Assembly (NCBI GenBank): GCA_021732995.1 | Contig: JAKFWA010000090.1 | Coordinates: 1 to 64,000 of the forward strand | Origin: Planctomycetaceae bacterium | GTDB taxonomy: Bacteria; Planctomycetota; Planctomycetia; Planctomycetales; Planctomycetaceae | DNA length: 64,000 nt | Direction of reading: 5' to 3' | In this document: one piece after another, positions 54,839 through 59,823 of the stretch | Numbering within the stretch: position 1 is the first letter of the stretch | Layout: each line of letters starts with the position of its first letter | Notes under the pieces: model-generated | What the model was told of the DNA's origin: nothing | What the model saw: only the letters and a program-made list of their open reading frames with translations | Database searches by the model: none | Made by a program: the position numbers and the translations under genes

Positions 54839-55339
54839 ATGAACGAGTTGTTTTTCCTAAAGCAATTGAATGATTCGCCAGGCGATACTGCGATTCTTCG
54901 CGAGTATGCTCGCTGGTTGAGTGATCGTGGCGACCCGCGGGGTCAGCACCTCTCCGCCGAACTTGACTTCTACGAGGCCGAGAAACAATTCGCACAAGCA
55001 GAGCAGCATCTTGGCGGCCTTCGCGGTAGTCGCCCACAAGATTTCGAGTGGTTGAACAGCGTACTCCCGATGGTGACGCGGGCTCCCGTTTCGGGAATCT
55101 TCTATTCAACGGCGTCTCCTGACGATCCTCCGTTTGTTCAACTCGGTGACTTTTGCGGTCGCAGTACTGTTGTCGGGATCATAGAAGCACAAAAAGTGTT
55201 CTTTCGTATTCCGGCGGGCCACAGCGGTATCATAACAGAAATATATGTTTGCAATGGCACACCTGTTACGGCGGGTGACAAGCTATTGAATATCATTCGA
55301 CCGCAGAAAGCTGATGTCCTACAAGTGAGGCTCAGATAA
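54839..55339 (+). CDS. TIGR02996 domain fused to AccB-like biotinyl domain
   Basis: A 166-residue protein. Residues 6-42 match the TIGR02996 repeat-companion domain (FLKQLNDSPGDTAILREYAR, WLSDRGDPRGQHLSAEL). Residues 83-155 closely follow the biotin carboxyl carrier domain of acetyl-CoA carboxylase: PVSGIFYSTASPDDPPFVQL, then GIIEAQKVFFRIPAGHSGII, then YVCNGTPVTAGDKLLNI. The biotinylated lysine position is kept (Lys119) but the flanking Met of EAMKM is changed to EAQKV. The protein is cytoplasmic with no signal. No carboxylase genes are nearby. It may be a modified carrier, an unmodified structural relative, or a decoy substrate for biotin ligase. No strong ribosome site precedes the ATG. Confidence 0.8.
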   Translation: MNELFFLKQLNDSPGDTAILREYARWLSDRGDPRGQHLSAELDFYEAEKQFAQAEQHLGGLRGSRPQDFEWLNSVLPMVTRAPVSGIFYSTASPDDPPFVQLGDFCGRSTVVGIIEAQKVFFRIPAGHSGIITEIYVCNGTPVTAGDKLLNIIRPQKADVLQVRLR

Positions 55340-55931: not shown

Positions 55932-55964
55932 GTTGTTTCTCCGTCGAGGTCATTGGTCTCAAGC

Positions 55965-57077
55965 ATGATGTTGAAGTCTTCAGCTTCGGAATTCCAGAAC
56001 TCCGCAGGCATCGTGCTGATCAGAGTGCCCGCCGGTTCCTTCACGATGGGCAGCCCGGATTCGGAAGATGGCCATCGCGTCTGGGAACGGCAGCGCGAAG
56101 TCACCTTTGCGAATGACTTCTGGTTAGGTAGATCGCCTGTCACACAAAATCAGTATCAAGCGGTAACAGGCACCAATCCGACGGACCATGAGCAGCTTGC
56201 GGACGCCCCGATTGACTCAGTGAGCTGGGAAAAGGCAACTCAGTATTGCCACAAGCTCACCGAACTAGACCGCGAAGCCGGAGTGCTCCCTGAGGGCTGG
56301 GCGTATCGGCTGCCGACGGAAGCGGAATGGGAATACGCCTGCCGGGCAGGAAGCTCGGAGCCGCGGCATGGTCCACCGCAGGATACTGCGTGGTATCATG
56401 ATAATGCGGACGAACGACCACACTCCGTTGGTCAGAAGACGCCCAACGCGTGGGGCTTTCAGGACATGCTCGGCAATGTCTGGGAATGGTGTCAGGACTG
56501 GTTCTATGTGGGTTGTCGGTCCGTTCGCGGGGGGAGCTATTTCAACAGTGCTCGCTTTTGCCGTTCAGCTCAGCGCTGGGGCTATGGGTCGTTTCCAGGA
56601 CGCTACCTCGGTTTTCGGGTGCTCGCTGCCAGGACGGGCTCATTCGACCTGACTCCTCCGATCGATGGCTTTCCGGCCCAAGAACGCATCTTCGACGCTA
56701 TCGAGGCGAACGATTTCGACCTGGCATTACGAATGATCACCGCCGATCCCGCTGCGGTCGAGTCCGTAGATGGCATCCCGCCGCCGCTGCACGATTGCAT
56801 CTACCATGATAATCCAGAATGGCTGGAGTGGCTGTTGGATCACGGAGCCAACATCGAACGCCGCGAACAGGACTACGGTTCGACGCCGCTCAAGGCCGCT
56901 GTAATCCATCGTCACAAGGGGATTATCAGAACTCTGATTGAGCGAGGCGCGGATACCACGCGCGCCATGAACGTTGCTCAACGCGGATTGGCCGGTGCCT
57001 TCGAAGATGATCCGCGCCTTGACCGCGCAGGATATCAAGAAATCATCGAATTACTTCGAGAGCTTGGAGTCAGATAG
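55965..57077 (+). CDS. FGE-sulfatase-like domain fused to ankyrin repeats
   Basis: A 370-residue protein. Residues about 14-225 are a formylglycine-generating-enzyme-like (SUMF1) domain: RVPAGSFTMGSPDSEDG, GRSPVTQNQYQAVTG, YRLPTEAEWEYACRAGSS, FQDMLGNVWEWCQDW and VRGGSYFNSARFCRSAQRWG. True FGEs carry two cysteines spaced by four residues in this last block; only one is present, so formylglycine formation is unlikely. Residues about 235-370 contain ankyrin repeats (ERIFDAIEANDFDLALRMI, WLEWLLDHGANIERREQDYG, STPLKAAVIHRHKGIIRTLI, ERGADTT). There is no signal peptide. The start is uncertain: ATG at 55965 or 55968, or TTG at 55953 close to GAGG. Confidence 0.85.
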   Translation: MMLKSSASEFQNSAGIVLIRVPAGSFTMGSPDSEDGHRVWERQREVTFANDFWLGRSPVTQNQYQAVTGTNPTDHEQLADAPIDSVSWEKATQYCHKLTELDREAGVLPEGWAYRLPTEAEWEYACRAGSSEPRHGPPQDTAWYHDNADERPHSVGQKTPNAWGFQDMLGNVWEWCQDWFYVGCRSVRGGSYFNSARFCRSAQRWGYGSFPGRYLGFRVLAARTGSFDLTPPIDGFPAQERIFDAIEANDFDLALRMITADPAAVESVDGIPPPLHDCIYHDNPEWLEWLLDHGANIERREQDYGSTPLKAAVIHRHKGIIRTLIERGADTTRAMNVAQRGLAGAFEDDPRLDRAGYQEIIELLRELGVR

Positions 57078-58734: not shown

Positions 58735-59823
58735 TTGCGACGCGCTGGTTCGGTGCCTGCCGAGAATCCCCCTGCGAAAGCCAATCCCGGTTCGTCAGTG
58801 AAGAACGCCCTCGCCGAAAAACCGACGGGTACCCGATCCTTCCGCATGGGCTTTACCGGCTTCGTGCCTGATATCACTCTGGAAGCCGTGACCGGCTCGC
58901 ACAAGTTCTGCCGTGAGAACGGCGACCTGCTCGCCCACCATATTGAAGGCGTACCGTGGGCCGAGGCGCTGAACGATCAACCTCTTCCGAAAGCCTTGCT
59001 GGATGACTGGCGAGGCAAAAAATCAGCGACGCCGCCAAAGGGAAAGGTTTACCTTGCGATCGCGCCCGGACGCGGTGAACTGAAGCTGTCGGACAAAGCG
59101 GGGCCTCTACCGAAGGAACTGAAGGGTAAGGCATACAATGACCCGCTCGTCCTGAAGGCGTATCTGAACTACTGCCGCAAGGCCGTTGACTTCTTCAATC
59201 CCGATTATCTGGCCATCGGGATTGAAATGAATGAGATCAATGATCAAGGCTCCAAGGTGTGGCAGAGCTATGTCACCCTGCACAAGCACGTCTATACCGA
59301 ATTGAAGAAGGAGCACCCGAAGCTGCCGATCTTTGCGTCGTGGACGCTGCACAATATGTATAAAAAGCGAGCCGGTATGTTGAAGAACTGGAAAGAACTG
59401 ATGCCGTACAATGATCAGATTGCGGTCAGCTATTATCCGTTCTTCATGCCCGACGCGGACCGCATTGCCGCTCTGGACTGGATGACGAAAGAGTTCGACG
59501 AGTTCAAGAAACCGTACGCGATGGTTGAGACCGGCGACGCTGCCGAACGCCTGCCTCTGCCCTCAGCGAAAGTCGTTATTGAAGGCAATCCGGAGAAGCA
59601 GGAAGCCTATTTACGTGCTCTACTGGCTTTGGCGCAGAAGCGTGAGTTCTCGTTCGTCGTGAGCTTTATTCATCAAGACTACGACGCCCTATGGGAGCGG
59701 ATCAAGGCCGGTGCCCCCGAGTTGTTCATGGCTTGGCGCGACTGCGGCTTGCTCGATGAAAAAGGCAATAAACGCCCCGCTTATCAAGCCTGGAAAGATT
59801 ATTTGGAACTTCCACTGAAGTAG
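58735..59823 (+). CDS. Clan GH-A-type glycoside hydrolase-like protein
   Basis: A TIM-barrel-type protein, 362 residues if counted from TTG 58735. The sequence from FRMGFTGFVPDITLEAV onward looks like a complete barrel: HIEGVPWAEALNDQ, GKVYLAIAPGRGE, FFNPDYLAIGIEMNEINDQG with the probable acid/base Glu after Asn-like context, PIFASWTLHNMYKK, IAVSYYPFFMPDADRI, YAMVETGDAAERL with the probable nucleophile Glu, and FSFVVSFIHQDYDALWERI. This resembles GH53/GH5-type clan A enzymes; the family cannot be fixed by eye. No signal peptide precedes it; the reading frame runs back into the broken TIGR03067 remnant, so its real start is unclear and the original 5' end may have been lost. Confidence 0.65.
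   Translation: MRRAGSVPAENPPAKANPGSSVKNALAEKPTGTRSFRMGFTGFVPDITLEAVTGSHKFCRENGDLLAHHIEGVPWAEALNDQPLPKALLDDWRGKKSATPPKGKVYLAIAPGRGELKLSDKAGPLPKELKGKAYNDPLVLKAYLNYCRKAVDFFNPDYLAIGIEMNEINDQGSKVWQSYVTLHKHVYTELKKEHPKLPIFASWTLHNMYKKRAGMLKNWKELMPYNDQIAVSYYPFFMPDADRIAALDWMTKEFDEFKKPYAMVETGDAAERLPLPSAKVVIEGNPEKQEAYLRALLALAQKREFSFVVSFIHQDYDALWERIKAGAPELFMAWRDCGLLDEKGNKRPAYQAWKDYLELPLK

Follow-up and report, generated by a model that had tools for sequence, protein, structure and literature searches.

A planctomycete protein family joining a diverged TIGR02996 domain to an AccB-type biotinyl barrel, and its possible role as a non-catalytic partner of ACC

Introduction

What might a bacterium do with a protein that has the barrel of the biotin carrier AccB, an altered acceptor motif and a helical domain of another kind in front of it? 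The question is raised by one ORF of the window (the whole 64,000-nucleotide stretch of planctomycete DNA analysed here), for which the initial annotation, made from the letters alone, proposed either a biotinylated carrier or an unmodified relative. The thumb of the biotinyl domain of E. coli BCCP has a Tyr and a Pro that are functionally needed and has been linked to dimerisation; several other carboxylases have biotinyl domains that lack it (PMC11926652). In plants, BADC proteins, which are BCCP-like, are devoid of the AMKL motif and touch the thumb of BCCP, have been described as ACC inhibitors or, alternatively, as ACC assembly factors (PMC11926652). Below, we examine the two domains of the window protein, its relatives and its acceptor motif, before weighing the possible functions.

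Results and Discussion

The Two Domains of the Window Protein

The C-terminal half of the window protein is an AccB-type biotinyl barrel with an AccB thumb (Table 1), as HMM profiles, sequence matches and predicted fold agree; the domain had been recognised from the start, but with the limits 83–155 instead of about 77–153. PF00364 (Biotin_lipoyl) matches the protein with 32.5 bits (E 7.6e-8; gathering cut-off 22.1), TIGR00531 (BCCP) matches residues 80–152 with 59.1 bits (E 6.8e-16), which does not reach the equivalog cut-off of 115.2 bits, and a sequence search of the PDB returns E. coli BCCP (1bdo/3bdo, E 2.6e-8). The AF2 model (mean pLDDT 88.7), built from an alignment of six members of the family with ten barrels of AccB, superposes on E. 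coli BCCP (4hr7_G) with a Z of 15.0 and an rmsd of 0.8 A over 77 residues and has BCCP structures at the top Foldseek ranks, but the AccB rows in the alignment favour the BCCP fold, so that the independent support comes from the sequence matches. Within the thumb, YSTASPDDPPF of the window protein pairs with YRTPSPDAKAF of E. coli BCCP. Membership of the Lipoyl/E2 group was rejected, the scores being weak and below cut-off and the thumb indicating AccB. The best NCBIfam match is to the short biotinyl-domain proteins PRK07051 / NF005457 (65.9 bits), but the window protein stays under their cut-off of 87, and NF005457 is a family of lone 80-residue domains.

Table 1. Features of the two-domain ORF, with positions in the window.
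Feature	Positions	Strand	Description or evidence
Two-domain ORF, 166 aa, ATG start	54839..55339	+	TIGR02996-like domain and AccB-type biotinyl barrel
TIGR02996-like N-terminal helical domain, residues 1–45	54839..54973	+	Profiles; model helices 3–12, 17–29 and start of 33–61
Helical linker, residues 46–76	54974..55066	+	Invariant Trp71-Leu72 (six members); model helices 33–61 and 67–75
AccB-type biotinyl barrel, residues 77–153	55067..55297	+	HMM, PDB sequence match, predicted fold
AccB-type thumb YSTASPDDPPFV, residues 89–100	55103..55138	+	Alignment with E. coli BCCP
Acceptor hairpin EAQKV, residues 116–120	55184..55198	+	Lys119 codon 55193–55195

The N-terminal half is, judging from profile comparisons, a diverged TIGR02996 domain, as had been proposed, yet this assignment rests on the orthologues and on homology within the family, since the window protein alone fails the shuffled control (8.5 with a local TIGR02996 profile, not exceeding the maximum of 8.8 among shuffled N-termini). 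Its own TIGR02996 score of 12.8 bits is under the curated cut-off of 29.05, as are those of P0002 (16.5 bits) and P0004 (22.9 bits), whereas the orthologue in G400 (P0005) passes it with 38.2 bits. Moreover, when six family N-termini were compared with 18 TIGR02996 segments using hhalign, the two aligned over 42 columns with a probability of 97% (E 6.6e-11). Residues 1–79 of the window protein gave no convincing match in the PDB. TIGR02996 is a repeat-companion domain described from Gemmata, with which about 45 N-terminal residues of the family align; here, however, no protein repeats follow and the partner is a biotinyl barrel. In the open-licence literature, our searches returned no paper naming TIGR02996 and no described protein combining it with a biotinyl barrel, in line with the initial annotation. 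Elsewhere in the window's own genome, there is one further TIGR02996 match, below threshold, and a Gemmataceae-like genome (G047) has 70 TIGR02996 matches, beside varied partners.

Family Membership and Distribution

The two-domain architecture is real. Full-length homologues, which the initial annotation had suggested looking for in other planctomycetes, exist in five other genomes, and the family thus has at least six full-length members in three taxonomic families. The genomes searched were those of the same taxonomic family (170), of the class (397, drawn evenly) and of the phylum (392), as well as those of three further families (241, 95 and 45); as the searches overlap and the larger ones score the top candidates per genome only, the number of members is a lower bound. 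Identity to the window protein in the alignment is 67% for the copy of an uncultured Schlesneria bin, 54% for G067, 41% for both G113 and G400, and 29% for G377. The distribution is rare and patchy, with members in four of the 170 genomes of the window's taxonomic family. A seventh member, the G357 copy (L064), is devoid of the N-terminal domain and lies beside a transposase-like ORF (minus strand, L106 8301–8929 on contig C7 of G357, just upstream of the family member); its TIGR02996 domain was not found within the 19 kb examined.

In a tree computed from the barrel only (74 columns, with long branches), L053 and L064 are placed apart from the other five members, but a single clade uniting all seven is not rejected (AU p 0.30), and the architecture common to the full-length members speaks for a single origin. 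A model of P0006 made from its sequence alone was unusable (pLDDT 43). A viral or plasmid origin was rejected, no relative being found in viral contigs and the plasmid matches being AccB-like and extending mostly over the barrel. A link to defence systems was also rejected, the window protein having no PADLOC match.

Acceptor Motif and Selection

The acceptor motif was compared across 96 distinct barrels, i.e., 89 canonical AccB and the seven family members. EAMK is present in 89/89 of the former and in 0/7 of the latter, a contrast that is not built in, because the AccB loci were chosen by similarity to the window protein and not by motif. The family members instead have EAQK (three of them), ESMK, EAMH, EVMA and ESMS. 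The window protein does read EAQKV with Lys119 retained, as first described, but Lys119, whose conservation among homologues had been set in advance as a test of the annotation, is kept in four of the seven members, the other three having His, Ala or Ser in its place. This argues against biotin carriage as a family-wide function, while the sub-clade of the window protein keeps the lysine, so that, of the two possibilities initially offered, a biotinylated carrier is disfavoured for the family in common but may still apply to the window protein itself. The papers searched offered no usable information on substitutions next to the biotin-bearing lysine.

Seven residues are invariant in all seven members (Gly86, Tyr89, Pro94, Gly103, Glu116, Ala126, Val143); fixed or nearly so in AccB, they are likely structural. 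Thr87, Ala117, Met118, Lys119 and Gly130 have drifted in the family. In the window protein and its two closest relatives, the invariant run of greatest length, TVVGIIEAQKVF, encloses Lys119 (column shuffling, p 0.004), which suggests that the retained hairpin still does something in the window sub-clade. The window gene is under purifying selection: against the Schlesneria copy, dN is 0.23 and dS about 1.80, i.e., near saturation, for a dN/dS of about 0.13, and pN/pS is 0.29 overall and 0.27 in the N-terminal part as in the barrel.

AccB and AccC Elsewhere in the Cell

No carboxylase was found among the ORFs checked with Pfam between 49.9 and 61.2 kb of the window, and the host AccC gave no tblastn match in the window, both of which bear out the earlier remark that no carboxylase gene is nearby. 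The AccB–AccC pair of this genome is located on a different contig (C33). Five of the seven genomes have an AccB distinct from the family member (the window's genome, G173, G067, G400 and G357). Neither G113 (87% complete) nor G377 (74% complete) yielded a second AccB, likely due to the incompleteness of these genomes; in both of them, the family member may also have replaced AccB. The family loci have no acc gene context.

A Possible Non-Catalytic Partner of ACC

The fold and the thumb are kept, the biotinylation consensus is lost, the lysine is missing from three members and a separate AccB is present, a combination that points to a non-catalytic partner. Our main reading, with a probability of roughly 0.4, is that the window protein would be an AccB paralogue acting on ACC in the manner of plant BADC. 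Because several relatives have lost the biotin-holding lysine, an accessory or regulatory part in ACC is more likely than that of a normal biotin carrier. In such a scenario, an AccB paralogue would have lost the N-terminus of AccB and gained the TIGR02996 helical domain, biotin carriage being no longer required. Its barrel and thumb would bind ACC at AccB, at the biotin carboxylase AccC or at both, where the non-catalytic subunit might aid assembly or compete with AccB, as plant BADC do, while the TIGR02996 domain could dock the protein to a further partner or site. Speaking against this reading, no acc genes accompany the family loci, and the window protein and its two closest relatives retain the lysine within the invariant run of the hairpin.

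With AccB / BCCP, the family has in common a biotinyl barrel at the C-terminus, the Tyr and Pro of the thumb and the Glu of the acceptor motif, but it has TIGR02996 in place of the N-terminal half and has lost EAMK, and the window protein is under the equivalog cut-off and does not adjoin accC. With plant BADC, the likeness is one of description, i.e., BCCP-like proteins without the biotinylation consensus in organisms that also have a true BCCP (PMC11926652). In contrast to the family, BADC have a plastid N-terminus and no TIGR02996, and the acceptor lysine is kept in four of the seven family members. That the family amounts to a bacterial counterpart of BADC, a pseudo-BCCP with a TIGR02996 N-terminus that arose in planctomycetes and regulates or scaffolds ACC without biotin, is a more doubtful proposition. 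If true, a BCCP-like ACC partner would have shed its biotin site not just in plants but also in bacteria, planctomycetes would offer a small bacterial system for studying how such partners act, and a TIGR02996 domain would have its first tractable binding partner. If wrong, the succession of Lys, His, Ala and Ser at one position would still be a natural series for studying the action of a biotinyl domain without biotin.

Among the alternatives, a second, specialised biotin carrier limited to the window sub-clade is unlikely but survives best. Lys119 would then be biotinylated by the host ligase for the benefit of AccC or another carboxylase, and the lysine losses elsewhere in the family would be secondary. 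The three closest members do keep Lys119 and Glu116 within their longest invariant run, the barrel is near enough to BCCP for ligase recognition and a Met before the acceptor Lys is not strictly required for biotinylation; since the EAQK hairpin is what the sub-clade conserves most, this possibility stays alive for the window protein. Against it stand the Gln of the window protein at position 118, where Met is invariant in 89/89 AccB barrels, the absence of the acceptor lysine from three other members, the absence of a carboxylase partner gene nearby and a genome that already has an AccB adjoining AccC.

Less probable again is a barrel serving as a mere structural or binding module unrelated to carboxylases, with TIGR02996 setting the function, as in the repeat proteins of the phylum. 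The 70 places where TIGR02996 occurs in G047, with their varied partners, and family loci free of acc genes would fit such a module, whereas the preserved AccB-specific thumb residues would be needless for a generic barrel. Finally, a decaying AccB duplicate or a chance fusion without function is very improbable, for although the rare and patchy distribution, the long branches and the truncated L064 copy beside a transposase-like ORF are what decay might leave, the frames are open and full-length in six genomes of three families, and purifying selection of similar strength on both halves, together with the best-conserved EAQK hairpin of the sub-clade, indicates that the window gene is not a decaying copy, which largely refutes this reading; the preferred one remains the non-catalytic partner of ACC.

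Other Genes at the Family Loci

No gene neighbours are common to the family loci. A DUF1501-type gene lies upstream of the family member in two of them, but it was not taken as a sign of a conserved neighbourhood, given that a transposase-like ORF intervenes in L106 and that such genes looked common at these loci. Downstream of the two-domain ORF, the plus strand of the window carries a 374-aa ORF with a TTG start (55953–57077), which combines an FGE-sulfatase domain (PF03781, E 4.6e-37) with C-terminal ankyrin repeats, and a 362-aa ORF (58735–59823) without a Pfam match at E 1e-5. Upstream of the G400 member, on the minus strand of L052, there is a tandem pair of near-identical ORFs (374–823 and 833–1357).
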